DNA from: Micromonospora siamensis
GTDB lineage: Bacteria > Actinomycetota > Actinomycetes > Mycobacteriales > Micromonosporaceae
Reading direction: 5' to 3'
DNA: 64,000 nt
Assembly (NCBI RefSeq): GCF_900090305.1
Contig: NZ_LT607751.1
Span: 2,604,001 to 2,668,000 of the forward strand
Of the stretch, positions 2,858 to 52,338 are shown piece by piece. Position numbers and translations under genes: made by a program. Numbering within the stretch: position 1 is the stretch's first letter; the number at the start of each line of letters is the position of its first letter. The notes under the pieces are model-generated. The model was not told the origin of the DNA and searched no databases. It saw nothing but the letters and a program-made list of their open reading frames with translations.

Positions 2858-3832
2858 TCAGGCGGGGACCACGGGGAGGTCGAGGACCTCGTCGACGGTG
2901 CGGCGCGGGGTGGGGCGGCCGGGCTGGCCGTAGCCGATCCGCATCACCATCTGCGGCGTCCCGAACCGGCCCAGTGACAGCCGTAGCGCCTCCCGGGCAC
3001 CGGGCACCTCGATCGGCTGGGACATCATCGACACGCCCAGCCCCGCATCGGTGGCGGTGAGCAGCACCCGCTGCAACGCCTGCCCCGCCACGATCTGGTC
3101 GGTGGCGGTGTTGCCGGCCGACCCGAGCACCGCGACGAGGGGCTCCGGCTCGAAGTCCCGCCCCGGCGCCCGGTTGCGGCCACCGAAGCCCCGGGCCGGC
3201 AGCAGATCCTGCGGCTCGCTCTGCGGGCCGCCCGCCGCGGCCGGCACCCCGTCCGGCGCCGGCCCGGAGCGGACCCACTCGGCCAGCTCCGCCCGGTAAC
3301 CGGGGTCGCGTTCCAGCACCCGGTTCGCGCTGCGGGCGATCTCGGCGAAGGCGTTGACCGCGCTCACCCCGATCAGCAGCTCCAGCCAGCACTGCTCCGC
3401 CCGGGCCGCCTCGCCGAGGCGCCAGCGGGCGTCGGCGGGCACCGGGTCGGGCCAGAACGGCGCCCGGTTGCTGAACCGGCGGGGGATCGCCGCGTGCAGG
3501 CTCTGCTCGGCGGGCGTCGGCCGGCGCGGCAGGTCCGGCACCAGCCGGGCGATCACGTCCGGCTCCGTCGGGTACGGCCGCAGCCGCACCGAGGCCGGGG
3601 TGCCCGCCACCGCGAGGGCCAGCCGCAGGTTGAACAGCGCCGCCCCGCAGGCGATACGGGTGCCCCAGCCGCTCGGGTCGGTCGCCGGCAGCCGACGGGC
3701 CGGGTCCACGGAGAGCTCGATCCCCTCGTCGCGCAGCCGGAACCGCCACGGCTGGCTGTTGTGCAGCGACGGCGCGCGGACGGCGTCGGTCACGGCGGCC
3801 CGCAGCTGCGCGACGGTGAAGCCGGTGTCCAT
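2858..3832 (-). CDS. Acg-family nitroreductase-like protein (dormancy regulon type)
   Basis: About 324 aa. Three in-frame ATG codons sit at 3830-3838 behind AAGGAG; the last (3830-3832) has the best spacing. The sequence carries the Acg/nitroreductase signature SLHNSQPWRF near the N-terminus, a GTRIACGAAL stretch and a C-terminal region ending in a VMRIGYGQP-like strand. In Mycobacterium tuberculosis this family (Acg and its paralogues) is induced by DosR under hypoxia or NO and is thought to bind FMN without classical nitroreductase activity. The gene is divergent from the DevR-type regulator, and two DosR-like boxes lie in the shared promoter. A second paralogue lies at 6469-7479. Its biochemical role is unproven. 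Confidence 0.85.
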   Translation of the reverse strand: MDTGFTVAQLRAAVTDAVRAPSLHNSQPWRFRLRDEGIELSVDPARRLPATDPSGWGTRIACGAALFNLRLALAVAGTPASVRLRPYPTEPDVIARLVPDLPRRPTPAEQSLHAAIPRRFSNRAPFWPDPVPADARWRLGEAARAEQCWLELLIGVSAVNAFAEIARSANRVLERDPGYRAELAEWVRSGPAPDGVPAAAGGPQSEPQDLLPARGFGGRNRAPGRDFEPEPLVAVLGSAGNTATDQIVAGQALQRVLLTATDAGLGVSMMSQPIEVPGAREALRLSLGRFGTPQMVMRIGYGQPGRPTPRRTVDEVLDLPVVPA

Positions 3833-3869
3833 CATCATGCTCCTTCCGTGGCAGGTCGTGCCGCCCCCC

Positions 3870-3882
3870 GGTTGGTCCAACC
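3870..3882. promoter_or_regulatory. Short palindrome in the divergent promoter
   Basis: GGTTGGTCCAACC is a perfect inverted repeat (6-bp arms, 1-nt centre) 38 nt upstream of the nitroreductase start. It is seen directly; no binding protein is known. Confidence 0.35.
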
Positions 3883-3914
3883 CCACGGTGCGCCAGGGGA
3901 CGCGCCCCCGGGCA

Positions 3915-3928
3915 GGGCCGGACGTCCC
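3915..3928 (-). promoter_or_regulatory. DosR/OsdR-like box, nitroreductase-proximal
   Basis: The minus strand reads GGGACGTCCGGCCC, fitting GGGNCNNNNGNCCC, the core of the DosR/DevR palindrome. It lies about 83 nt upstream of the first nitroreductase start. Binding by the regulator at 4019-4660 is an inference. Confidence 0.55.
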
Positions 3929-3969
3929 GACCAGCCGGGCACCCCTTCCCGCCCCGGCGCGCCCCGGAC

Positions 3970-3983
3970 GGGACCTTCGGCCC
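3970..3983 (+). promoter_or_regulatory. DosR/OsdR-like box, regulator-proximal
   Basis: GGGACCTTCGGCCC lies 35 nt upstream of the response-regulator ATG and fits GGGNCNNNNGNCCC. Its half-sites recur at 7602-7615 and, inverted, at 14353-14366. Autoregulation of the response regulator is inferred. Confidence 0.6.
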
Positions 3984-4018
3984 GTGCACCGGCCGGCCCG
4001 ACCGGGTAGAAACGAGGG

Positions 4019-4660
4019 ATGATCCGGGTGTTCCTGCTCGACGACCACGAGGTCGTCCGTCGTGGCCTTGCCGACCTGCTCACCAGCAGCGGCGACATCG
4101 AGGTGGTCGGCGAGTCCGGCTCCGCGCAGGAGGCCGCCCGCCGGATCCCCGCGCTCCGCCCCGACGTGGCGATCCTGGACGCCCGGCTGCCCGACGGCAA
4201 CGGCATCGACGTCTGCCGGGACATCCGCGCCGTGGACTCCTCGATCAAGGGCCTCATCCTCACCTCGTACGAGGACGACGAGGCGCTCTTCGCGGCGATC
4301 ATGGCCGGCGCCGCCGGTTACGTGCTCAAACAGATCCGCGGCACCGACCTGGTCGACGCGGTCCGCCGGGTGGCGGCCGGGCAGTCCCTGCTCGACCCGG
4401 CGATCACCACCCGCGTCCTGGAACGCATCCGCAGCGGCGTCGAGCAGCCACGCGAGCTGAAGACCCTCACCGAGCAGGAACGACGGATCCTGGAGTACGT
4501 CGCCGAGGGGCTGACCAACCGGGAGATCGCCGGCAAGATGTTCCTCGCCGAGAAGACCGTGAAGAACTACGTCTCCAGTGTGCTGGCCAAGCTGGGCCTG
4601 GAACGGCGTACCCAGGCCGCGGTGCTGGCCACCCGACTGCTCGGCAAGTCCTCCCACTGA
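4019..4660 (+). CDS. DevR/DosR-type LuxR-family response regulator (OsdR-like)
   Basis: A 213-aa NarL/LuxR-type regulator starting at ATG 4019. The receiver has the acidic pair D8/D9, phospho-acceptor D54 in AILDARLPDG, a switch Ser/Thr near residue 82 and K104. The C-terminal HTH reads LTEQERRILEYVAEGLTNRE followed by KTVKNYVS and LAKLG-ERRTQAAV, almost the DNA-recognition helix of mycobacterial DosR (Lys and Asn contact DNA there). The cognate kinase is most likely the double-GAF protein at 4701-6428, convergent with it. The role inferred is control of a hypoxia, redox or NO dormancy-like regulon, with boxes upstream of this gene, both nitroreductases, the metal ATPase and phosphoketolase. 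Confidence 0.92.
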   Translation: MIRVFLLDDHEVVRRGLADLLTSSGDIEVVGESGSAQEAARRIPALRPDVAILDARLPDGNGIDVCRDIRAVDSSIKGLILTSYEDDEALFAAIMAGAAGYVLKQIRGTDLVDAVRRVAAGQSLLDPAITTRVLERIRSGVEQPRELKTLTEQERRILEYVAEGLTNREIAGKMFLAEKTVKNYVSSVLAKLGLERRTQAAVLATRLLGKSSH

Positions 4661-4700
4661 GGCTGGTCCGCCAACCGGGCGGGCCGAGCCGGCGGGCGGC

Positions 4701-6437
<1,737 letters not shown>

Positions 6438-6468
6438 CTAGCGCCGTAGCCCGGCCGGCACGAGCCCG

Positions 6469-7479
6469 CTACCGCTGCCGGCCGTCGACCGCCGAGGTGT
6501 CCACCACCTGCTCGGTGGGGAGCCGCGGGGTGTGCGCCGGGCCGGCGTGCGCCGGGTCGGCGATCCCCAGGCGGAGCACCAGGAACGGGTAGCCCATCCC
6601 GGCCAGCACGCCGCGCAGCGTCTGCCGGGTGCCCTCGACCTCCACGACGCCGCTGAGCGGCACCATCGACACCCCGAGCCGGGTGGCGGTCAGCCAGGCG
6701 GCGGAGAGCGCCTCACCGGCCCGCAGCCAGCTGTCGGGCTCGTCCTCGTCGCCGTAGAGCAGCGCGTACACGGCCGCCCGGTCGTGGCCGGGGCCGATCG
6801 GCAGGGTGCCGGGGCGGCCGAAGTCCCGACCCGGCACGGTGGTCTGCGGCGCCTGCTCGGGCAGCACCTCCGGCGGCAGTCCGGTGCCGGTGCCGGCGCG
6901 GCTGGTCCAGTACGCCAACTCCTCGCGCAGCTGCGGGTCCTCCGCCTCGACGCTGCCGGCGTGGGAGGCCGCGGCGGCCAGCTCCATCACCTGGTCGGAG
7001 TCGAGGATCTGCAACCGGGCGCCCTCGGCGGTGGCGGCGCGGGTGATCTCACCGATCGCGGCGGTGGGCACCTGCTCGTCGCTGACCGGCCGACGGTCGG
7101 TGTGCCGGACCTGCATGCACTGCACCAGGTGCATGGCCTGCGGGTCGGCGCCCGGGTGCCGCATGCTGGTCAGCCGGGCGAGCAGCTCCGGGTCGCCCGG
7201 GTCGGGCAGCCGCTCCACCACCGGCACCCAGCCCTCGGCGGCCAGCGCCACCCGGGCGTGGTGCAGCGCGGCTCCACAGCTGAGCGCCAGCAGCCGCCCC
7301 TGCGGGTCGGTGGCGCTCAGCTGCCGGGCCCGGGCCATCCGCAGCTCCAGCGCGTCGGGCAGCACCCGCCAGCTCCAGGGTTGCGTGTTGTGCACCGAGG
7401 GGGCGTGCCCGGCCATCGCCGCGGCCTCCGCGAGCGCGGTGGTCAGCGGGCGGTCCGTAGCCGGCGTCTCGTGGCTCAT
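6469..7479 (-). CDS. Second Acg-family nitroreductase-like protein
   Basis: A 336-aa paralogue of the protein at 2858-3832, starting at ATG 7477-7479 with GGAAAGG upstream. It has the matching SVHNTQPWSW motif, a LLALSCGAAL segment and C-terminal VLRLGIADP. The middle keeps the QVRHTDRRPV stretch typical of this family. Family knowledge: DosR/OsdR-controlled, possibly flavin-sequestering proteins made in hypoxia. It is transcribed away from the ATPase-hemerythrin gene, with a DosR-like box between them, so the two are probably co-induced. It ends 40 nt from the start of the sensor kinase gene on the same strand, so readthrough into the kinase is possible. Confidence 0.85.
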   Translation of the reverse strand: MSHETPATDRPLTTALAEAAAMAGHAPSVHNTQPWSWRVLPDALELRMARARQLSATDPQGRLLALSCGAALHHARVALAAEGWVPVVERLPDPGDPELLARLTSMRHPGADPQAMHLVQCMQVRHTDRRPVSDEQVPTAAIGEITRAATAEGARLQILDSDQVMELAAAASHAGSVEAEDPQLREELAYWTSRAGTGTGLPPEVLPEQAPQTTVPGRDFGRPGTLPIGPGHDRAAVYALLYGDEDEPDSWLRAGEALSAAWLTATRLGVSMVPLSGVVEVEGTRQTLRGVLAGMGYPFLVLRLGIADPAHAGPAHTPRLPTEQVVDTSAVDGRQR

Positions 7480-7601
7480 CGTCACGACCTTTCCGTGTTC
7501 GTCCCCATCGTGCCCCACCCGGATGCCGCCGCGGGCGGGGATGCCGCTCCATCCTCTGGCATGCCCCGTCCGGCCGCACGGTACGCACGCCCCGGCCCAC
7601 C

Positions 7602-7615
7602 GGGCCCTTCGGCCC
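7602..7615 (+). promoter_or_regulatory. DosR/OsdR-like box between nitroreductase and metal ATPase
   Basis: GGGCCCTTCGGCCC fits GGGNCNNNNGNCCC and lies 122 nt from the nitroreductase ATG and 56 nt before the proposed GTG of the ATPase. If the ATPase began at the in-frame ATG 7561 the box would fall inside the gene, an argument for the later start. Confidence 0.55.
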
Positions 7616-7671
7616 GCCGGAATACCCGGGTTGCCCTGTCCGACGCGCTCCAGCACTGGGACGATCCGCAG

Positions 7672-10215
7672 GTGGGAACCGAACCGCGGGAGTGCCTGCC
7701 GGAGCGGCCGGTCGGCCGTCGGCGGCTCAGCCGGCTTCGTCGCCGGTTCGGCGGGTCCGACGACGCGCGGCGGCCCGGCGCCGTCGAATGGGCGCCGCTG
7801 ATCCTGCTCACCGTGGCCGCGCTCGCCGGCGCGGCGCTGTGGCTGGCCGGGCTGCGCGGCGCCGCCGACCTGGTCTGGGCCGCGGTCACCCTGGTCGCCC
7901 TGCTCCCCGCCACCTGGGCGGTGCTCCGCCAGATGTGGCAGCGCCAGTTCGGGGTGGACGTGATCGCCGTGCTGGCGCTGGCCGGCGCGCTGGTCGTCCG
8001 GGAGTACCTGGCCGGCGCGGTGATCGCGGTGATGGTGGCGACCGGACGGTCGCTGGAGACGTACGCCCAGCGTCGGGCCACCCGTGACCTGCGGGCCCTG
8101 CTGGAGCGGGCACCGCGGCAGGCCCGCCGGCGTACCGCCGACGGCGGGATCGAGGTGGTGCCGCTGGACCGGGTCGCGGTCGGCGACCGCCTGGTGGTCG
8201 GCCCCGGTGACGTGGTGCCGGTCGACGGGACCGTGGAGGAGCCGGCCACCCTGGACGAGTCGGTGGTGACCGGCGAGTCGCAGCTGGTGAGCCGGGCGGC
8301 GGGGGAGCCGGTGGCCAGCGGCGTGGTCAACGCCGGCGCCGGCTTCGGACTGCGCGCGGTGCGTGGCGCGGCCGAGAGCACGTACGCCGGCATCGTCCGG
8401 CTGGCCGAGGAGGCGACGGCCCGCAAGGCCCCGATGGTCCGGATGGCCGACAAGTACGCCGCCGCGTTCGTGCCGTTCACCCTGGCGCTGGCCGGCCTGG
8501 CCTGGCTGCTGACCGGGCAGTTCGTCCGGGCGGTGGCGGTGCTGGTGGTGGCCACCCCCTGCCCGCTGCTGCTGGCCACGCCCATCGCGATCGTCTCCGG
8601 GCTGTCCCGGGTGGCCCGGCGTGGGGTGCTGGTACGCGACGGTGGCTCGCTGGAGCTGCTCGGCCGGGCCCGGACGCTGATGATGGACAAGACCGGCACC
8701 CTCACCGCTGGCCGGCCGCGCGCCGCGGAGACCGTGGTGCCTCCCGGCGGTGACCGGGACGAGGTGCTGCGGCTGGCCGCCTCGGTGGAGCAGCTCAGCC
8801 CGCACGTGCTCGCCGCCGCACTGGTCCGGCAGGCCCGCGAGCAGGGGCTGCGGCTGGGTGAGCCGACCGACGTGACCGAGGAGCCGGGCCGGGGCGTACG
8901 CGGGCGGGTGGACGGCCGGGTGGTCGAGGTCGGGCAGTTCTCCGGTGACCTGCCGGAGTGGGCCGACCGGGCCCGGCGCCGGGCCGAGACGGCCGGTCTG
9001 TCCACGGTCTGGGTCAGCGGCGAGCAGGGGCCGCTCGGTGCGATCCTGCTGGAGGACCCGGTCCGCCCGGACGCCCGCCGCACGGTGCGCCGGCTGCGCG
9101 AGGCGGGACTCGATCGCCTGGTCATGGTCACCGGGGACCGTCCCCGTACGGCCGAGCAGGTGGCCCAGGCGGTCGGCGTGGACGACGTGGTGGCGCAGTG
9201 CTCGCCGGAGCAGAAGGTGGCGCGGGTCCGGGACGAGTCGGGCCGGGCGGTGACCGTGATGGTCGGCGACGGGGTGAACGACGCGCCCGCGCTCGCCGAG
9301 GCGCACGTCGGGGTGGCGATGGGCGCCACCGGCGCGACCGCCTCGGCGGACGTGGCCGACGCGGTGCTCACCGTCGACCGGCTGGACCGGCTCGCCGACG
9401 CCGTGGAGATCGCCCGGTACGCCCGCCGCATCGCCGTCCAGTCCGCCACCGTCGGGATGGGCCTGGCGGTGGTGGCGATGGTGGTCGCGGCCGCCGGTGG
9501 GCTGCCCCCGGTGGCCGGCGCCTTCCTTCAGGAGGGCATCGACGTGCTGGTCATCCTCAACGCGCTGCGGGCGTTGGGCGGTGGCCTGAGCCGGCGTGAC
9601 GTGCCTCCGGCCACCCGGGACATGCTCGACCGGTACGCCGGCCAGCACGGCCCGGTGCGGGAGGTGCTGGCCCGGCTGCGGGACACCGCGGACCTGGTGG
9701 CCACCCGTCCGGACGACCCGGAGTGCCTGCCGGCGCTGCGCGAGGTGCACCATCGCCTCACCGAGCAGGTGCTGCCGCACGAGGCCGCCGAGGAACGTCA
9801 GCTCTATCCGGCGCTGGCCGAGCCGCTGGGCAGCGCGGAGGCCACCTCGACGATGAGCCGGGGTCACGTGGAGATCAGCCGCCTGGTCGACCGGATCGGT
9901 GGCCACCTGGCCGACCACCCTGGCGAGGCTGCTCCTTCGGGCGAGGCTGCTCCGTCGGGTGAGGTGGCGCGGGCGGGTGAGGCCGGCCGGCCCGGCGAGG
10001 CGGCGCGGCCTGGTGGGGCGGGCCGGTCGGGGGCGGTGGCGCGGCCGGGCGAGGCGGACCGGTCGGGTGCCGACGGCCGGCTGCGGCCGGAGGAGGTGCC
10101 TGACCTGCTGGCCGCCCTCTACGGGCTGGACGCGGTGCTGCGCCTGCACCTGGCGCAGGAGGAGGAAGACTACTTTTCGCTCAGCCCTTCCGACGGCGGC
10201 GACCCCGCCCGCTGA
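7672..10215 (+). CDS. P1B-like P-type cation ATPase fused to a C-terminal hemerythrin (HHE) domain
   Basis: About 847 aa from GTG 7672; an in-frame ATG at 7561 is the alternative. The ATPase part has the TGES actuator motif (about 200), intramembrane TPCPLLLATP (Cys297), phosphorylation site DKTGT (Asp339) and GDGVNDAPAL hinge, as in heavy-metal pumps. No N-terminal CxxC metal-binding domain is present. After the last membrane segments (about residue 645) comes a hemerythrin-like four-helix region with EVHHRL, LPHEAAEE, SRGHVEI and LRLHLAQEEE, the His/Glu set of a di-iron site. A low-complexity Gly/Glu/Ala/Pro insert (about 752-805) splits helices 3 and 4. Which metal is moved, and whether the di-iron domain senses oxygen or NO, is inference. 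In mycobacteria the DosR regulon also contains a P-type ATPase (CtpF). Confidence 0.88.
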   Translation: MGTEPRECLPERPVGRRRLSRLRRRFGGSDDARRPGAVEWAPLILLTVAALAGAALWLAGLRGAADLVWAAVTLVALLPATWAVLRQMWQRQFGVDVIAVLALAGALVVREYLAGAVIAVMVATGRSLETYAQRRATRDLRALLERAPRQARRRTADGGIEVVPLDRVAVGDRLVVGPGDVVPVDGTVEEPATLDESVVTGESQLVSRAAGEPVASGVVNAGAGFGLRAVRGAAESTYAGIVRLAEEATARKAPMVRMADKYAAAFVPFTLALAGLAWLLTGQFVRAVAVLVVATPCPLLLATPIAIVSGLSRVARRGVLVRDGGSLELLGRARTLMMDKTGTLTAGRPRAAETVVPPGGDRDEVLRLAASVEQLSPHVLAAALVRQAREQGLRLGEPTDVTEEPGRGVRGRVDGRVVEVGQFSGDLPEWADRARRRAETAGLSTVWVSGEQGPLGAILLEDPVRPDARRTVRRLREAGLDRLVMVTGDRPRTAEQVAQAVGVDDVVAQCSPEQKVARVRDESGRAVTVMVGDGVNDAPALAEAHVGVAMGATGATASADVADAVLTVDRLDRLADAVEIARYARRIAVQSATVGMGLAVVAMVVAAAGGLPPVAGAFLQEGIDVLVILNALRALGGGLSRRDVPPATRDMLDRYAGQHGPVREVLARLRDTADLVATRPDDPECLPALREVHHRLTEQVLPHEAAEERQLYPALAEPLGSAEATSTMSRGHVEISRLVDRIGGHLADHPGEAAPSGEAAPSGEVARAGEAGRPGEAARPGGAGRSGAVARPGEADRSGADGRLRPEEVPDLLAALYGLDAVLRLHLAQEEEDYFSLSPSDGGDPAR

Positions 10216-10275
10216 TCCCTCGCCGGTCGGCGTCGTGTCCGGCGATTGAGCCCTTCCCGGCCGGCGCCAGACGTG

Positions 10276-10357
10276 GTGTCGGACCTCGGTTCCGGGCCGG
10301 TGCCCGGCGCAGTGTCGGACCGTGACGTCGGGCTTGCGCCCGGCGCAGTGTCGGACC
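10276..10357. repeat. Imperfect 36-nt tandem repeat, three copies
   Basis: GTGTCGGACC recurs at 10276, 10312 and 10348, exactly 36 nt apart, with CCCGGCGCA or similar before it. The stretch 10216-11001 between the ATPase-hemerythrin and stress-protein genes has no convincing gene; it holds this array, a hairpin at 10559-10606 and short-period repeats at 10660-10860. Confidence 0.6.
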
Positions 10358-10558
10358 CCTGGGAGAGTCAGTGCCCTCCGAAGTCGCGGATCTTCACCGG
10401 GGCCACCACCTCGCCCGGCCACCGACGGGCAGGCGCCCGGCGCGACGCCCGGATCGTCACCAGCCCTTCGGCTCGATCGGAGGCGAGCAGCCGGGCCTGA
10501 TCAGGAATCGGTCGTGCCCATCCCGGGCGGGTCGCCGGATGGAGGCGGATCCGCAGAC

Positions 10559-10606
10559 GAGCGTGATGACTCTGAGGAATACTTATACCTGAGAGTCATC
10601 ACGCTC
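10559..10606. promoter_or_regulatory. Long perfect inverted repeat with AT-rich loop
   Basis: Arms GAGCGTGATGACTCT (10559-10573) and its exact complement (10592-10606) flank an 18-nt AT-rich centre containing AATACTTATACC, rare in this GC-rich window. It could be a repressor operator, a terminator for the stress-protein operon end or part of a small element; the sequence does not decide. Confidence 0.5.
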
Positions 10607-10659
10607 GAAACCTTAATGCCAGCTGGCGCGGCCAGCGGGCCTCGCGCGCCGATCCCATC

Positions 10660-10860
10660 GCCGTCCGCCGTCCGCCGTCCGCCGTCCGGGCCGCCCAGGC
10701 CGCCCAGGCCGCCCGGGCCGGCCGCTGGGCGGCGGGCTCGGCCGTGCCGGCCCGGCATGAGTCGCGGGGACCTGGCATGGGGTCGCGGGGACCTGGCACG
10801 AGAGGGCGCGGACCCCGCATGGGGCCCGGCATGAGTCGCCCGGACCCGGCACGAGCCGCG
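10660..10860. repeat. Short-period GC-rich tandem repeats
   Basis: Successive arrays of about 7 nt (CGCCGTC units), 9 nt (GCCGCCCAG units) and 21 nt (GGCATGAGTCGCGGGGACCTG-like units) lie downstream of the stress-protein gene. Nothing suggests translation. They look like slippage-expanded noncoding DNA. Confidence 0.55.
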
Positions 10861-11001
10861 CCGGGCGGTTCCAGCGTGTCCGGCGCGCTTGGATCGGCAT
10901 CGGCGCGTCCGGCCATGCAGAGCTGGCTCGACCGCGCGGACCGGGCTCACCCGCCCGGGCCGGTGGGCCGCGACGCGCGGTAGCGGCCCACCGGAGCGGT
11001 C

Positions 11002-11856
11002 TCAGCGTTCGCGGGCCACCGCGACCGGGCAGTACGCGTGCTGGATCAGCTGCTGGCTCACCGAACCGAGCAGCATCCCGCGCAGCCCGCCCCGGCCCCG
11101 GCTGCCCACGACCACCAACTGGGCGGCGCGGCTCGCCTCGACCAACTCGGCGGCGGGGCTGCCGGCGGTCACGTCGACCGAGACCGCCAGCTCGGGGAAG
11201 GTCTCCCGCCACTGGGCGACCGCCTCTTCGGTCGCCGTCCGGTCGTCCGCGAGAGTGGCCGCCGCCTCGTCGGCGGAGAGGCGGCCCGCTTGGGAGACCC
11301 GGAGCACCCGCAGCGGGCAGGCCCGCTGGGCCGCGCGTTCCACCGCGAAACCGAGCGCCAGGTGCGCCGACTCCGACCCGTCGAAGCCCACCACCACCGG
11401 GCCGTTCGGCTCCGGGTGGGATTCCCGGACCACCACCACCGGGCAGTGTGCGTGCGCGGTGACCGAGACGGCGGTCGAGCCGACCAGCAGGCCACCGAAG
11501 CCGCCGTGACCGCGGCTGCCGAGCACCAGCAGGTCGGCTTCGGCGGAGCGTTCCTGGAGCACCAGCGCGGGCGGGCCGTCGAAGACCTCGCCGTGCACCG
11601 TGAGCCCCGGGTGGCGGGCGGCGGCGTCCGCCGCGGCCCGGCGTACCAGTTCCTCGACCTCGCGGCGGGCGGTGTCGTCCGGCCAGACGCCGGGGGCGAT
11701 GCCCGGACCGACCCAACCGGCCACGGTCAGCCACTCGAAGACGTACGCCAGCCGGACCGGCCGGCCCGAGCGGCCCGCCTCGGCCAGCGCCCACTCCAGG
11801 GCCACCGTGGCGTCGGCGGAGCCGTCGTAGCCGACCAGGATCTCGTCGGAACTCAC
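11002..11856 (-). CDS. Tandem-domain universal stress protein (UspA family)
   Basis: A 284-aa protein with two Usp domains (about 1-145 and 150-284). It starts with GTG 11854-11856, which overlaps the phosphoketolase stop as GTGA, so the two form an operon. Both domains keep the ATP-binding glycine loop ([16 protein letters not shown] and [16 protein letters not shown]) and an N-terminal VGYDGSADA or VGFDGSESA with the Asp that contacts adenine nucleotides. Tandem Usps of this kind are prominent members of the DosR and OsdR regulons and are thought to link ATP binding to growth arrest. The exact partner is unknown. Confidence 0.9.
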
Positions 11857-14255
11857 TGGCCACTCCGCAGCGCCGGGTCGGTCTCCCGGATCCAGCGCCA
11901 CTCGGCCACCCGCGGGTCGTCCTCGCCGTAGCGGCGAGTGTGGTCGCGGCACGCCTGCCGGGCGTCCACCATCTCCTGGCGCAGGTGGGCGGCCCGCGCG
12001 GCCAGCCCCGGCACCCGGTCGATGACGTCGATGACCAGGTGGAACCGGTCCAGGTCGTTGAGCATCACCATGTCGAACGGGGTGGTGGTGGTGCCCTCCT
12101 CCTTGTAGCCGCGCACGTGCAGGTTGTCGTGGTTGGCCCGGCGGTAGGTGAGCCGGTGGATCAGCCACGGGTAGCCGTGGTACGCGAAGATGATCGGCTT
12201 GTCCCGGGTGAAGATGGTGTCGAACTCGTTGTCCGGCAGGCCGTGCGGGTGCTCCGACGGCGGTTGCAGCCGCATCAGGTCGACCACGTTGACCACCCGG
12301 ACCTTCAGCTCCGGCAGGTGCTGGCGGAGCAGGTCCGCGGCGGCGAGGGTCTCCAGGGTCGGCACGTCGCCGGCGCAGCCGAGCACCACGTCCGGTTCGC
12401 TGCCGTCGTCGGTGCTGGCCCAGTCCCAGATGCCCAGGCCGCGGCGGCAGTGCTGGACCGCCTCGTCCATGGTCAGCCAGTTCGGGGCGGGCTGCTTGCC
12501 GGCCACCACCACGTTGATGTAGTGCCGGCTGCGCAGGCAGTGGTCCATGGTGGACAACAGGGTGTTGCCGTCCGGCGGCAGGTAGACGCGTACCACCTCG
12601 GCCTTCTTGTTGACCACGTGGTCGATGAAGCCCGGGTCCTGGTGCGAGAAGCCGTTGTGGTCCTGCCGCCAGACGTGGCTGGACAGCAGGTAGTTCAGCG
12701 ACGCGATCGGCTCCCGCCAGGGAATGCGCCGGGTGACCTTCAGCCACTTCGCGTGCTGGTTCACCATCGAGTCGACGATGTGGATGAACGCCTCGTAGCT
12801 GGTGAAGATGCCGTGCCGGCCGGTCAGCAGGTAGCCCTCCAGCCAGCCCTCGCAGAGGTGCTCCGACAGCACCTCCATCACCCGGCCGTCGGGGGAGAGG
12901 TGGTCGTCGCCGGGCACCGTGCCGGCGACGAACGCCCGGTCGGTCACCTCGAAGGCGGCCCCGAGCCGGTTGGAGGCCACCTCGTCCGGGCCGAAGAGGC
13001 GGAACGTCTGCGGGTTGCGGACGATCACGTCGCGTACCCACTGACCGAGGACGCCGGTCGCGCCGACGGCCGGCTCGCCCGGCCGCTTGACGTCGACGGC
13101 GTACTCGTGGAAGTCGGGCAGGTCCAGGTCGCGCAGCAGCCGGCCGCCGTTGGCCACCGGGTTGGCGCTCATCCGCCGGTCCCCGGTGGGCGGCAGCGTG
13201 ACCAGCTCCTCGACCGGGGAGCCGGTGGCGTCGAAGAGCTCCTCCGGCCGGTAGCTGCGCAGCCAGCGCTCCAGCTCGGCCAGGTGCTCCGGGTTGTCGC
13301 GGACCTCGGCGATCGGCACCTGGTGGGCGCGGAAGGTGCCCTCCACCTGCTTGCCGTCGACGGTGCGCGGCCCGGTCCAGCCCTTCGGCGTACGCAGCAC
13401 GATCATCGGCCAGCGGGGGCGCTCGACGGTCTCACCGGTCCGGGCCCGGCGCTGGATCGCGGCGATCTCGTCGCAGGCCCGGTCCAGGGTCGCCGCGAGC
13501 AGCTGGTGCACCTTCTCCGGCTCGTCGCCCGCCACCACGTACGGCTGGTAGCCGAAGCCGCGCATCATCTCCAGCAGATCCTGCTCGGGGATCCGGTCCA
13601 GTACCGTCGGGTTGGCGATCTTGTAGCCGTTGAGGTGCAGGATGGGCAGCACCGCGCCGTCGCGGGCCGGGTTGAGGAAGACATTGGACAGCCAGCTGCC
13701 GGCGAGCGGCCCGGTCTCCGCCTCGCCGTCGCCGATGACGCAGGCGACCAGCAGGTCCGGGTTGTCGAAGGCGGCGCCGTAGGCGTGGCTCAGGGCGTAC
13801 CCGAGCTCGCCGCCCTCGTGGATCGAGCCCGGCACCTCCGGTGCGACGTGGCTGGGGATGCCGCCGGGGAAGGAGAACTGGCGGAACAGCCGCTGCATGC
13901 CGGTCTCGTCCCGGCTGATCGAGTGGTACAGCTCGCTGTAGGTGCCCTCCAACCAGGTGTTGGCCACCAGGGCGGGGCCGCCGTGGCCGGGGCCGGTGAC
14001 GAAGATGGCGGACAGGTCGCGGTCGACGATGACCCGGTTGAGGTGCGTGTAGAGCAGGTTGAGCCCGGGGCTGGTGCCCCAGTGGCCGAGCAGTCGGGGC
14101 TTGACGTGCTCGGGGCGCAGCGGCTCCCGCAGCAGCGGGTTGTCGAGCAGGTAGATCTGCCCGACGGTGAGGTAGTTCGCCGCGCGCCAGTAGGCGTCAA
14201 GCCGGCGCAGCTCGTCTTCGGTCAGGGGGCTGTGCAGGTCGAGAGCGGTGTCCAT
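11853..14255 (-). CDS. Xylulose-5-phosphate/fructose-6-phosphate phosphoketolase
   Basis: An 800-aa protein, the usual length for Xfp, starting at ATG 14253-14255. The N-terminal [29 protein letters not shown], the thiamine-diphosphate region [17 protein letters not shown] and the C-terminal [20 protein letters not shown] are all hallmarks of phosphoketolase. The enzyme cleaves xylulose-5-P or fructose-6-P with phosphate to acetyl-phosphate plus glyceraldehyde-3-P or erythrose-4-P, giving ATP through acetate kinase without oxygen, which fits a hypoxia island. It is co-transcribed with the universal stress protein gene downstream. A DosR-like box lies about 98 nt upstream of the start. Confidence 0.95.
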
Positions 14256-14352
14256 GCTGCATTAGCCTCTCGCGGGTCGGGGATTTGTGCACCCGGAAGC
14301 GCCAGTTCGGCCGGGCCGGTCCAGCTTCGCCGGTGGAGCCGGACGATGATCA

Positions 14353-14366
14353 GGGCCGTTGGTCCC
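14353..14366 (-). promoter_or_regulatory. DosR/OsdR-like box upstream of phosphoketolase
   Basis: The minus strand reads GGGACCAACGGCCC, matching the regulator-proximal box except for the two central bases. It lies about 98-111 nt upstream of the phosphoketolase ATG, in the gap after the second stress-protein gene. Confidence 0.55.
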
Positions 14367-14380
14367 GGCCCTCGAGGGCG

Positions 14381-15205
14381 TCATGCCCCGTCCGGCGGCG
14401 AGGAAACCGATCCACGCACGACGATGACGGGGCAGGGCGAGTGGTAGAGCAGCGACTGGCTCACCGCGCCGAGCATGCCGCGCCACGGCTCGTCGCCGCG
14501 CGCGCCCACGACGGCCAGTTGGGCGGAGCGGGACTGCTCCAGGAGCACGGTGCCCGGGTCACCCTCGATGGTGTGGCACTCGGCGGCCACCGCCGGGTGA
14601 CGTCGGGCGGCTCGGGCCACCGCCTGGACGAGCACCTGCTCGCCGTCGTGCCGGCCCGGTTCCAGCACCCGGATCGCGAGCACCCGCGCGGAGCGCCGGT
14701 CGGCGCAGTCGAAGGCGAAGGCCAGGGCGGTCTGCGAGCTGGCGGAGCCGTCCACCCCGACCAGAACCGGCCCCGCCGGTGGTGGCTGCGGGCGGACCAC
14801 CAGCACCGGGCAGTCGGCCCGGGCGGCCACCTGGACCGCCGGGGCGTCGGCGGGCACGCAGGCGCCGCAGCCGGCCATCCCGCCGTCGCCGAGGGCGACC
14901 AGGTACGCCGACTCGGAGCGGCGGATCAGCGCCTGCACCGGTGAGCCCTCGACGATCTCGCCGCTGACCGGCACCGCCGGTTCGGCGTCGTTGGCGGCCG
15001 CGGCGGCCCGCTCGATCAGCTCCTCCGCGTCGGTCCGGGTGACCGCGCCGGTGGAGTCGAACGCCGCCTCCCAGTTGAAGGCGTGCAGCAGGCTCAGCGA
15101 CCGCCCCTGCGCGGCGGCCTCCCGGGCGGCCAGCCGGACCACCTGCATCGACTCCTCGGAGGGGCCGACCGCGGCCACGACCGCCGCGTCGGCGGGTGTG
15201 GTCAT
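14381..15205 (-). CDS. Tandem universal stress protein with degenerate first nucleotide loop
   Basis: A 274-aa protein from ATG 15203-15205, preceded by GGGAGGTGAG. Two Usp-like halves are visible: the first begins VVAAVGPSEESM and the second VLVGVDGSASS. In the first half the usual glycine loop is replaced by GDGGMAGCGAC, losing the terminal G(S/T); the second reads GARGDEPWRGMLGAVSQ and is closer to consensus. Nucleotide binding by the first half is therefore doubtful. It lies upstream of the phosphoketolase/Usp operon in the same direction, with a 125-nt gap holding a DosR-like box, so it probably belongs to the same stress response. Confidence 0.85.
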   Translation of the reverse strand: MTTPADAAVVAAVGPSEESMQVVRLAAREAAAQGRSLSLLHAFNWEAAFDSTGAVTRTDAEELIERAAAAANDAEPAVPVSGEIVEGSPVQALIRRSESAYLVALGDGGMAGCGACVPADAPAVQVAARADCPVLVVRPQPPPAGPVLVGVDGSASSQTALAFAFDCADRRSARVLAIRVLEPGRHDGEQVLVQAVARAARRHPAVAAECHTIEGDPGTVLLEQSRSAQLAVVGARGDEPWRGMLGAVSQSLLYHSPCPVIVVRGSVSSPPDGA

Positions 15206-43490: not shown

Positions 43491-45161
43491 TCAGCGGCGT
43501 CGGGTGCAGACCGGGGCGGCCTTCGCCACGGTGTCGGTCGACCAGACCACGGCGACCGTGAAGCAGTAGTCGTTGACCCGGTCCAGGCCGTACACGATGA
43601 AGCTGTCCGTCCCGGCGGGCAGTTGCTGGAAGACCCGCGGTTCCTGACCGGACCGGCCGGCCGAGATGACCACCGGGCCCTCGCCGCCCGCCGGGTACGT
43701 CCAGGCGAGCGCGATGTTGTCCCGCCGGTCACGCAGGCCCACGGCGGTGGGCGGGCTGCCGGGTCGGGCCGCGGCGCGGGGCGTCGCGGTGGGCCGCGCG
43801 GGGCCGGCCGCCCCGGACGTGGTCGGCGCCGTGGGCGCCGGGTCGGCGGGCGTGTCGAAGCGGGACACCCCGGCGATCACCGCGGCGGCCCCGAGCAGCA
43901 CCACGACCACCCCACCGACGACCAGTGGCAGCAGCCGGTTGCGCGGCGCTGGCGCGACCGGCTGCCGGGGGACCAGCACCGGCAGCAGGCGCGAGGACGG
44001 CTCCGGGTCGGCCGGCGGTCGCAGGCTCCGTACGCCCGGGGGGTCCTCCGCCGTGCCGGCCAGCGCCACCACGGCCGGTGGCAGGGGGTCGCGTCCGGGA
44101 TCGGGGAACGGGTCGTCGGCGACCTGGTCGGGCGGCCACCACCCGTCGTCGTCGAACGCGTGGAACCGCCCGGTGTCGGACGGCGGTCGGGGTGCGGGCA
44201 CCTGCCGGGCGTCCGGCGGCGAGTACGCCCATGCGGCGTCGGTGAAGGGATCGGCCTGCGGCTCCGGCCGGTCGAAGGGGTCCGGCTCGGCGGCCGGCGG
44301 GTCGGAGGCGTCGACGCCTGGATAAGCCAGCGGGTCGCTGTCGGTGTCCGACCGGTGGCCCAGCGGATCGACCGGTCCCTCCTCGGGGGTCGGGGTACGG
44401 GCGGCCGGGACGACCGGGACGTCCCACCGACCCGACGCGCCCGCCCCGCCGGTCGGGGTGGTGTCGGTGCAGAGGTGACCCGGGTCGGGTGCCGCCCGGG
44501 CCAGCGTCGCCACCTGGGCGGCCAGTGGGTCGTCGGGGGCCAGGTGCTGGCGGGTCAGCTCCTCGGCCAGCGCCAGGCTCTCCCGGGCCTCGGCGTACCG
44601 GCCGCAGTCGCGCTGCATCCGGCCGAGCCGGGCCAGCATCTTGATCCCGCTGGGGTGACCGTCGCCGTAGACCTCCCGGTGCAGCTCCCAGGCGTCGAGC
44701 AGCCGGTCCCGGGCCAGGGCGCACTGGCCGCGCGCGTGCTCGACGGTGGCCAGGTCGGCGTGCGCGGCCAGCACCCGGGGGGACTCCGGCCCGTCCCGGG
44801 CGGTCAGCTCCAGGATGACGTCGGAGTAGAGCCGGGCGGCCCGGGCGTCGCTGCCGACCTGGTGCAGGACGGCGGCCAGGGTCGCCGCGGCGGTGATGGC
44901 CCGCTCGTCGGAGCGGCCGTACAGCCGGGTGGTGGCGGCGTGCCCGAAGGCGGCCCAGCCGCGCGCGGCGTGCGGTTCGCCGAGGGCGATCAGGATCTTG
45001 GCCTGGAGGCCGGCCGCCTCGGTCAGCTCCGGTGTGGCGTTCGCCGGCCGCGGGTCGGCGTCGGTCAGCGCGTCGGAGAGCAGGCTCCGCGCGCCGGCCA
45101 GGTCGCCGGCTGCCACCAGCTGCTGGGCCTGGAGGGTCAGTTCACCGAGGCGGGAAGGCAC
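43491..45161 (-). CDS. TPR-domain, single-pass membrane protein with C-terminal extracellular domain
   Basis: A 556-aa protein from GTG 45159-45161. Residues 1-215 form helical tetratricopeptide-like repeats (for example AAGDLAGARSLLSDALTDAD and CGRYAEARESLALAEELTRQ). A long acidic Pro/Asp-rich linker follows, then one membrane helix (LLPLVVGGVVVVLLGAAAVI, about 425-445), a Pro/Thr/Ala stretch and a C-terminal beta-rich domain ending TVAKAAPVCTRRR, fibronectin III-like. It presumably links a cytoplasmic scaffold to an external domain. No partner is evident. Confidence 0.8.
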   Translation of the reverse strand: MPSRLGELTLQAQQLVAAGDLAGARSLLSDALTDADPRPANATPELTEAAGLQAKILIALGEPHAARGWAAFGHAATTRLYGRSDERAITAAATLAAVLHQVGSDARAARLYSDVILELTARDGPESPRVLAAHADLATVEHARGQCALARDRLLDAWELHREVYGDGHPSGIKMLARLGRMQRDCGRYAEARESLALAEELTRQHLAPDDPLAAQVATLARAAPDPGHLCTDTTPTGGAGASGRWDVPVVPAARTPTPEEGPVDPLGHRSDTDSDPLAYPGVDASDPPAAEPDPFDRPEPQADPFTDAAWAYSPPDARQVPAPRPPSDTGRFHAFDDDGWWPPDQVADDPFPDPGRDPLPPAVVALAGTAEDPPGVRSLRPPADPEPSSRLLPVLVPRQPVAPAPRNRLLPLVVGGVVVVLLGAAAVIAGVSRFDTPADPAPTAPTTSGAAGPARPTATPRAAARPGSPPTAVGLRDRRDNIALAWTYPAGGEGPVVISAGRSGQEPRVFQQLPAGTDSFIVYGLDRVNDYCFTVAVVWSTDTVAKAAPVCTRRR

Positions 45162-52266: not shown

Positions 52267-52338
52267 GGGCGATTAGCTCAGCGGGAGAGCGCTTCGTTCA
52301 CACCGAAGAGGTCACTGGTTCGATCCCAGTATCGCCCA
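52267..52338 (+). tRNA. tRNA-Val (CAC anticodon)
   Basis: The cloverleaf is complete: acceptor GGGCGAT/ATCGCCC, D-arm GCTC/GAGC, anticodon arm CTTCG-TTCACAC-CGAAG with CAC at the wobble-to-36 positions (reads GUG, Val) and T-arm ACTGG-TTCGATC-CCAGT. The CCA end is not fully encoded. Its 3' half serves as attachment site for the accessory region that follows. Confidence 0.96.

Follow-up and report, generated by a model that had tools for sequence, protein, structure and literature searches.

The window considered here comprises 64 kb, namely bases 2,604,001-2,668,000 of the 6.25-Mb single-contig genome of Micromonospora siamensis, and harbors an island of genes for a DevR/OsdR-type response regulator, a DevS-type sensor kinase, two Acg-family nitroreductases, a metal ATPase, a phosphoketolase, and two universal stress proteins (USPs). 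We propose, with a probability of roughly 0.82, that this locus forms the core of an OsdRK/DevRS-type oxygen/nitric oxide (NO)-response regulon of Micromonospora, which would be driven by shared palindromic boxes, and the phosphoketolase is well supported as a predicted conserved, box-bearing member of that regulon. The new part is the predicted fermentation output under the shared boxes, and the island appears to represent the core of the regulon, not the whole of it. The original prediction had named these genes and had placed four boxes at window positions 3915, 3970, 7602, and 14353 (boxes A, B, C1, and D, respectively; Table 1). Profile and structure matches recover every one of the genes, the boxes occur at these places, and three of the four have in common the half-sites GGGNCC/CGGCCC or their complement, as had been claimed.

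The top PDB match of the regulator is DevR (Table 1), as against E 1.5e-44 for VraR, and the protein has D8, D9, D54, T82, and K104 as well as K179, K182, and N183, which we take to serve phospho-acceptor and DNA-contact roles, respectively. The GAF-A domain of the kinase can be aligned with GAF-A structures of mycobacterial kinases (2vzw, E 3.2e-55; DevS 2y8h, E 1.3e-50), and the His of the HPPM motif, presumably the heme ligand, is kept in both structure alignments, while H393 is located in the HisKA_3 domain. The kinase and regulator genes converge, and the kinase gene is placed behind nitroreductase 2, from which it is separated by 40 bp (kinase start at 6428) or 79 bp (start at 6389, the later one picked by a codon-usage gene finder, the true start being uncertain); the two genes are probably co-transcribed. 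Since nitroreductase 2 has box C1 in front of it and is followed by the kinase gene, both the kinase and the regulator would be under boxes.

The raw box pattern is common, with six matches in the window versus 12.3 expected from shuffles and 520 in the 6.25 Mb of the genome (5.3 per 64 kb); besides the four boxes, the window matches lie at 14067, inside the phosphoketolase gene, and at 43801. As the whole window displays no enrichment, the boxes were assessed by matrices taken from the literature, by intergenic density, and by conservation. A random sample of 400 kb of stretches from the same genome, with genes called by a small codon-usage finder, yielded 53,977 bp of intergenic DNA and 9 of 39 raw-pattern matches in it, and these assignments are approximate because the finder missed nitroreductase 2. 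On this basis, the promoter gaps of the island (1,453 bp) hold four boxes versus 0.24 expected from random intergenic DNA (16-fold, P 1.2e-4), so that an equal box density in random intergenic DNA, the outcome named beforehand as contrary to the proposal, is not what is found. The published DosR consensus, in the form quoted in PMC2947987, occurs three times in the island gaps versus 0.08 expected (P 8e-5), and its only matches within the 64 kb are those at 3970, 7602, and 14353; box A fails this stricter consensus. Additionally, a matrix built from 26 OsdR sites of Streptomyces coelicolor in PMC5069765 (its Table 1) ranks the sites at 3914, 14352, and 7601 first to third in the window and that at 3969 ninth.

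Regulators 90-100% identical to this one occur in 53 of 60 relatives in the genus (54 of 61 genus genomes counting its own), and nine named loci, eight from Micromonospora and one from a Micromonosporaceae bacterium, carry regulators that are 95-99% identical. The locus was taken from 40 of these 53 relatives, and the order nitroreductase 1-regulator-kinase-nitroreductase 2-(ATPase)-USP1-phosphoketolase-USP2 is observed in 37 of them, two with several kb of extra DNA between regulator and kinase. At a score of at least 10 with the Streptomyces matrix, for which chance amounts to ~0.01-0.03 per gap, a box is present in the nitroreductase 1/regulator gap in 32/40 loci and upstream of the phosphoketolase in 30/37, and the same threshold is reached upstream of nitroreductase 2 in 4/37 and upstream of USP2 in 1/36. 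In alignments of the 37 loci, the separate 14-mers with the highest conservation in their gaps are the boxes at 3970, 3915, and 14353, at 93-96% versus a mean of 65-67%: box B reaches 96% (top of its gap), box A 93% (second separate 14-mer of the gap), and box D 95-96% (top). Upstream of nitroreductase 2, the relatives display two weaker boxes ~22 bp apart, the counterpart of box C2 being a perfect GGGCCACAGGTCCC-type site in some of them, and a box carrying one mismatch or none in the right range of the C1 region is found in 21/37 relatives versus 163 of 1980 random windows (8.2%).

In 39 of 39 loci, 43-45 bp separate box B from the start of the regulator, although the gap itself ranges from 153 to 460 bp; the search expression was composed after the boxes of the relatives had been viewed in the matrix scan. 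This count omits the locus L068, where that scan places a comparable box at -43. The distance from box A to nitroreductase 1 is more variable (55-135 bp). A conserved stretch with TAGAAA directly ahead of the regulator ATG suggests a leaderless transcript, for which box B would be positioned at about -43 and would overlap the -35 region. Taken together, the sequence data support the conclusion that the DosR/OsdR-type boxes are under selection.

A genome scan for clustering had been suggested as a check, and with a pattern built from the four boxes it yields 49 sites, which include the four of the island by construction. At most two of the 49 sites fall in any other stretch as long as the island; however, further boxes occur elsewhere. 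The context was read for 41 of the other 45 sites, the four lowest-scoring having been dropped beforehand, and 20 proteins adjoining these sites were scanned with Pfam. Twenty of the 41 sites are intergenic, compared with 13.4% non-coding DNA (P 5e-8) or, in a stricter comparison, with the 9 of 39 raw-pattern matches of the random sample (P 3e-4). Sites at genes of a recognizable hypoxia or NO type are those at USP/HSP20, pyruvate phosphate dikinase (PPDK), Acg nitroreductase, CBS-BON, and flavohemoglobin genes (Table 1). Hence, contrary to the original prediction, the predicted regulon extends beyond a single island, since further boxes stand elsewhere at genes of stress response and anaerobic metabolism. 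A trait of DevR/DosR-OsdR regulons is the presence of boxes at genes for Acg nitroreductase, USP, and HSP20, and the trait is found here at nitroreductases 1 and 2, the third nitroreductase, and the USP/HSP20 promoter; the targets of DevR include hspX and a USP gene (PMC5069765). Of 30 genus genomes chosen for the search, four gave an HSP20 match at E 1e-15, each accompanied by a box scoring 14.0-14.6. The flavohemoglobin reaches 385 bits, under the NCBIfam cut-off of 432.

The pyruvate formate-lyase gene adjoins the HSP20 gene (TIGR01255, 1102 bits vs cut-off 994), together with its activase (TIGR02493, 290 vs 232), and its box lies 96-97 bp upstream of the gene. A matrix restricted to the island was trained on the regulator, nitroreductase 1, and phosphoketolase boxes of the relatives, and it scores box C1 at 15.4 although that box was not in the training set. 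Nineteen of the 61 genus genomes encode the formate-lyase, and in 10 of these 19 carriers, the genome studied here included, this matrix finds a box (score at least 8, at most 200 bp upstream), versus 0.013 (genome density) or 0.027 (intergenic density) expected per carrier; the carriers are related and therefore not independent. The genes around the formate-lyase form a second island (L151:8254-17797, 3.148-3.158 Mb) with two USPs, HSP20, a cyclic nucleotide (cNMP)-binding protein, pyruvate formate-lyase and activase, and PPDK, and boxes occur in three of its promoter gaps. In two genus genomes, a second phosphoketolase gene, ~58-59% identical, was noticed 3.4 kb (G029) or 0.2 kb (G039) from pyruvate formate-lyase.

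Table 1. Genes and boxes of the island (window coordinates) and box-bearing loci elsewhere in the genome. FMN, flavin mononucleotide.
Feature	Position	Strand	Evidence or remarks
Acg-family FMN nitroreductase 1	2858..3838	-	NCBIfam NF047509 319 bits vs cut-off 199; PDB 2ymv Acg nitroreductase E 2e-30
DevR/OsdR-type response regulator	4019..4660	+	PDB 3c3w DevR E 1.4e-72
DevS/DosT/OsdK-type sensor kinase	4701..6428	-	GAF-A, further GAF, HisKA_3, HATPase (Pfam)
Acg-family FMN nitroreductase 2	6469..7479	-	NCBIfam NF047509 285 bits vs cut-off 199
P1B-type metal ATPase, C-terminal hemerythrin domain	7672..10215	+	TIGR01525 516 bits vs cut-off 346; PF01814
Universal stress protein 1 (USP1)	11002..11856	-	PF00582 E 2.9e-57
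Phosphoketolase (XFP)	11853..14255	-	PF09364, PF03894, PF09363; NF003619 1479 bits vs cut-off 962
Universal stress protein 2 (USP2), upstream of phosphoketolase	14381..15205	-	PF00582
Box A AGGGCCGGACGTCCCG	3914..3929	.	Centre 83 bp from nitroreductase 1 start; Streptomyces OsdR matrix 15.4, rank 1 of 64 kb
Box B CGGGACCTTCGGCCCG	3969..3984	.	Centre 43 bp upstream of regulator start; matches published DosR consensus
Box C2, weaker, GGTACGCACGCCCC	7580..7593	.	22 bp from box C1; tandem partner in alignment
Box C1 CGGGCCCTTCGGCCCG	7601..7616	.	Centre 129 bp upstream of nitroreductase 2; matches DosR consensus
Box D AGGGCCGTTGGTCCCG	14352..14367	.	Centre 104-105 bp upstream of phosphoketolase start; matches DosR consensus
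Divergent USP/HSP20 promoter			Box 16-mer is the reverse complement of box D
PPDK with box			TIGR01828 1189 bits vs 843
Third Acg nitroreductase	L153:10759 (box upstream)		Box score 19.8 (OsdR matrix), highest of 41; 292 bits vs 199
CBS-BON protein with box			
Flavohemoglobin/Rrf2 divergent promoter	L156:7409-7461		Two strong boxes 37 bp apart

The phosphoketolase has a single match in its own genome at E 1e-60, and its gene overlaps that of USP1 by 4 bp, the two probably forming one operon. Box D lies between this gene and USP2, which has no box of its own upstream. Beyond the genus, the best 80 named loci around DevR-type regulators (more exist) were surveyed with flanks of up to 10 kb. Nine of these are Micromonospora-like, eight of them with phosphoketolase, and the other 71 include eight loci with phosphoketolase within the flanks, from Actinoplanes (one), Dactylosporangium (two), Nocardioides (two), Aeromicrobium (two), and Streptomyces (one); a rough chance estimate, assuming one phosphoketolase per 7-Mb genome, is ~0.3% of loci. 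An upstream phosphoketolase box is present in three of the seven evaluable loci among these eight, that of Streptomyces sp. SID3343 being very strong (21.7). Additionally, formate-lyase and activase lie near a DevR-type regulator in Sphaerisporangium melleum.

Several observations weigh against the proposed regulon. Among the 41 other sites, 21 fall inside coding sequence, and several of the intergenic ones stand at genes without an evident link to hypoxia (pyrimidine nucleoside phosphorylase, GH12 cellulase/FAD enzyme, LytR/MOSC, beta-lactamase, MraZ/MurT, and DUF4397). Box C1 is weakly conserved and is not the best-conserved stretch of its gap; before 9 of the 19 formate-lyase genes, no box reaches the threshold given above; no box was found in the 4.1-kb acetate kinase locus; and in other genera of the family, a box (score at least 10) precedes 6 of 30 phosphoketolase loci, with ~1.3 expected, which leaves the evidence for box D beyond the genus weak. 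Growth of Mycobacterium massiliense, which has a comparable locus, did not differ significantly from that of M. abscessus at ~6% O2 (PMC4263727). Lastly, 7 of the 61 genus genomes (L098-L104) are without a near-identical regulator. At their locus, regulator, kinase, and nitroreductase 1 were not found and USP1-phosphoketolase-USP2 stays, with nitroreductase 2 retained in L098; in six of the seven, the contig runs past USP1 and neither regulator nor kinase appears in the part retrieved, and the contig of L104 ends. A kinase search in the seven gave no match, the same search having had no positive control. Their phosphoketolase box is intact in four, degraded in one, and absent in two, and formate-lyase occurs in 0/7 versus 19/54 of the others, a difference that is not significant (P 0.09). 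As a natural experiment, regulator loss thus gives a mixed outcome.

The four intact boxes imply that such a site can survive without the pair or work for a different regulator, and their persistence fits a recent loss of the pair and equally a second reader of the box. That the boxes are real operators read by a different LuxR-type regulator, at least at the phosphoketolase promoter, would also be compatible with the NarL-type regulators of ~37-48% identity that exist in the genus. However, we consider it quite improbable, since the boxes match DevR/OsdR motifs, the promoter of the regulator itself has a box at a near-constant distance, and the phosphoketolase box is lost or degraded in three of the seven genomes that lack the pair. 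Chance palindromes in a GC-rich genome (73% GC) are a very remote explanation; the abundance of the raw pattern and a window count below that of shuffles would suit it, but it is contradicted by the excess over random intergenic DNA and by the conservation of three boxes in 37 relatives, and was rejected on these grounds for boxes A, B, and D.

It is likewise unlikely that the pair controls itself and the nitroreductases only, phosphoketolase, formate-lyase, and USP being neighbors with boxes of little consequence. The distance from box D to the phosphoketolase start codon, where the promoter is unmapped, is 104 bp, formate-lyase boxes are confined to just over half of the carriers, and upstream phosphoketolase boxes are rare in other genera of the family, all of which would fit such a restricted control. 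Nevertheless, box D is conserved as well as the autoregulatory box, phosphoketolase recurs near DevR-type regulators outside the genus (8 of 71 among the best 80, with a box in three of seven), and USP, phosphoketolase, DevR, and kinase stand in a row in a table of M. massiliense genes (PMC4263727).

Under the regulon model that we favor, O2 would leave, or NO would bind, the heme of the kinase GAF-A domain, and the kinase would then phosphorylate the regulator, which in this state may bind GGG-C-4N-G-CCC boxes. The regulator would activate its own gene through box B and the divergent nitroreductase 1 through box A, the putative nitroreductase 2-kinase operon through the tandem boxes C1/C2, and the putative phosphoketolase-USP1 operon through box D. 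The same boxes elsewhere would recruit USP/HSP20, pyruvate formate-lyase and its activase, PPDK, the third Acg nitroreductase, CBS-BON, and flavohemoglobin. The predicted output is redox and stress protection plus oxygen-independent ATP, for which the phosphoketolase would supply acetyl-phosphate and an acetate kinase encoded elsewhere would form ATP; the single acetate kinase match of the genome lies at 5.815 Mb, 3.2 Mb from the phosphoketolase and not adjacent to it.

The predicted control of the island by this pair, as claimed at the outset, is supported in part: the sequence bears out a DevR/OsdR-type pair, boxes under selection, and the phosphoketolase as a conserved member with a box, and the case is weak for two genes. 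The metal ATPase is an uncertain member because it is missing in 8 of the 37 syntenic relatives and a fragment in two (27 show neither), and because box retention is mixed where it is missing: among the eight relatives without ATPase, L037 and L065 retain a box resembling C1, whereas L034, L039, and L063 do not. Control of USP2 is weak because an upstream box is found in 1 of 36 relatives. An ATPase start at 7561, which would place box C1 inside the gene, was rejected given the gene finder start of 7672 and the indels of relatives in this stretch.

As a tentative extension, to which we give somewhat less than even odds, the DevR/OsdR-type systems of Micromonospora and scattered actinobacteria may act as fermentation switches that directly activate phosphoketolase and the glycyl-radical pyruvate formate-lyase. 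If so, supposed aerobes would make ATP without oxygen. Streptomycetes survive but do not grow without oxygen and possess many anaerobic genes, which has been termed the 'anaerobic paradox' (PMC5069765). The predicted operators linking phosphoketolase and formate-lyase to a DevR-type regulator would thus provide a testable energy route for anaerobic survival, and they illustrate the rebuilding of a DosR-type regulon in a related group of antibiotic producers. Since OsdR is phosphorylated in vitro by acetyl-phosphate (PMC5069765), feedback from the phosphoketolase is conceivable; that its acetyl-phosphate serves as phosphoryl donor to the regulator and holds the switch in the on state is a doubtful speculation.

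Further features surround these genes. The hemerythrin domain of the ATPase occupies window positions 9622-9921 (PF01814) and is followed by a repetitive stretch at ~9930-10090 that was spotted by eye. A 24-bp inverted repeat (10558-10607, 92% complementary, 2 nt between arms) lies between the convergent ATPase and USP1 genes and is probably a bidirectional terminator, and a 26-bp inverted repeat (2772-2829, 92% complementary, 6 nt between arms) between nitroreductase 1 and the convergent gene 1772-2749 is probably a terminator as well. The sole Rfam match of the window at the gathering threshold is a tRNA gene at 52267-52338. Among the genome sites, one other stands at a rhodanese/metallo-beta-lactamase gene.

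With regard to known systems, no box-bearing phosphoketolase or formate-lyase target of DosR was met in the accessible text of the literature on these enzymes with DosR or DevR, and a search joining phosphoketolase, universal stress protein, hypoxia, and Actinobacteria found no paper. The accessible portions of PMC6456759, PMC4601167, and PMC5435760 make no link of either enzyme to DosR/DevR, and that of PMC2947987 mentions Xfp and DosR-regulon homologues in Rhodococcus equi, not connected to each other. In M. massiliense, USP and phosphoketolase are immediate neighbors of a sensor kinase and a regulator annotated as DevR (MMASJCM_2512-2515), for which the authors suggest anaerobic survival (PMC4263727). 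The gene order differs from that described here, and the accessible part of that paper has neither boxes nor a regulatory claim, whereas the present locus has predicted conserved operators. The fermentation loci of the Bifidobacterium shunt share the enzyme family; however, here no acetate kinase lies alongside, and USP genes and a predicted hypoxia-type operator are found instead.

The DosR/DevR regulon of M. tuberculosis, to which Acg nitroreductases belong, resembles the present one in the homology of its regulator and heme-GAF kinase. Its consensus GGGHCNWWNGNCCC, as quoted in PMC2947987, is matched by three of the boxes. The OsdRK system of S. coelicolor (PMC5069765) likewise comprises a DevR/DevS-type pair, a 16-bp palindrome, AGGGCCGATCGGCCCT, and an autoregulatory box, with USPs and a nitroreductase nearby and PPDK among the predicted targets; OsdR has in common with DevR the motif as well as core genes for USP, nitrate reductase, and regulators (PMC5069765). 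Profile scans of the island genes, to which the search was limited, found no narGHJI nitrate reductase of the kind that marks the OsdR cluster. In the accessible text of PMC5069765, phosphoketolase and pyruvate formate-lyase are missing from the predicted targets of its Table 1, which has the nitrate reductase Nar2, and regulator and kinase form one operon there, whereas the kinase gene of Micromonospora is convergent and lies behind a nitroreductase. A site of that table, CGGGACCTTCGGCCCT, differs from box B in its last base alone.

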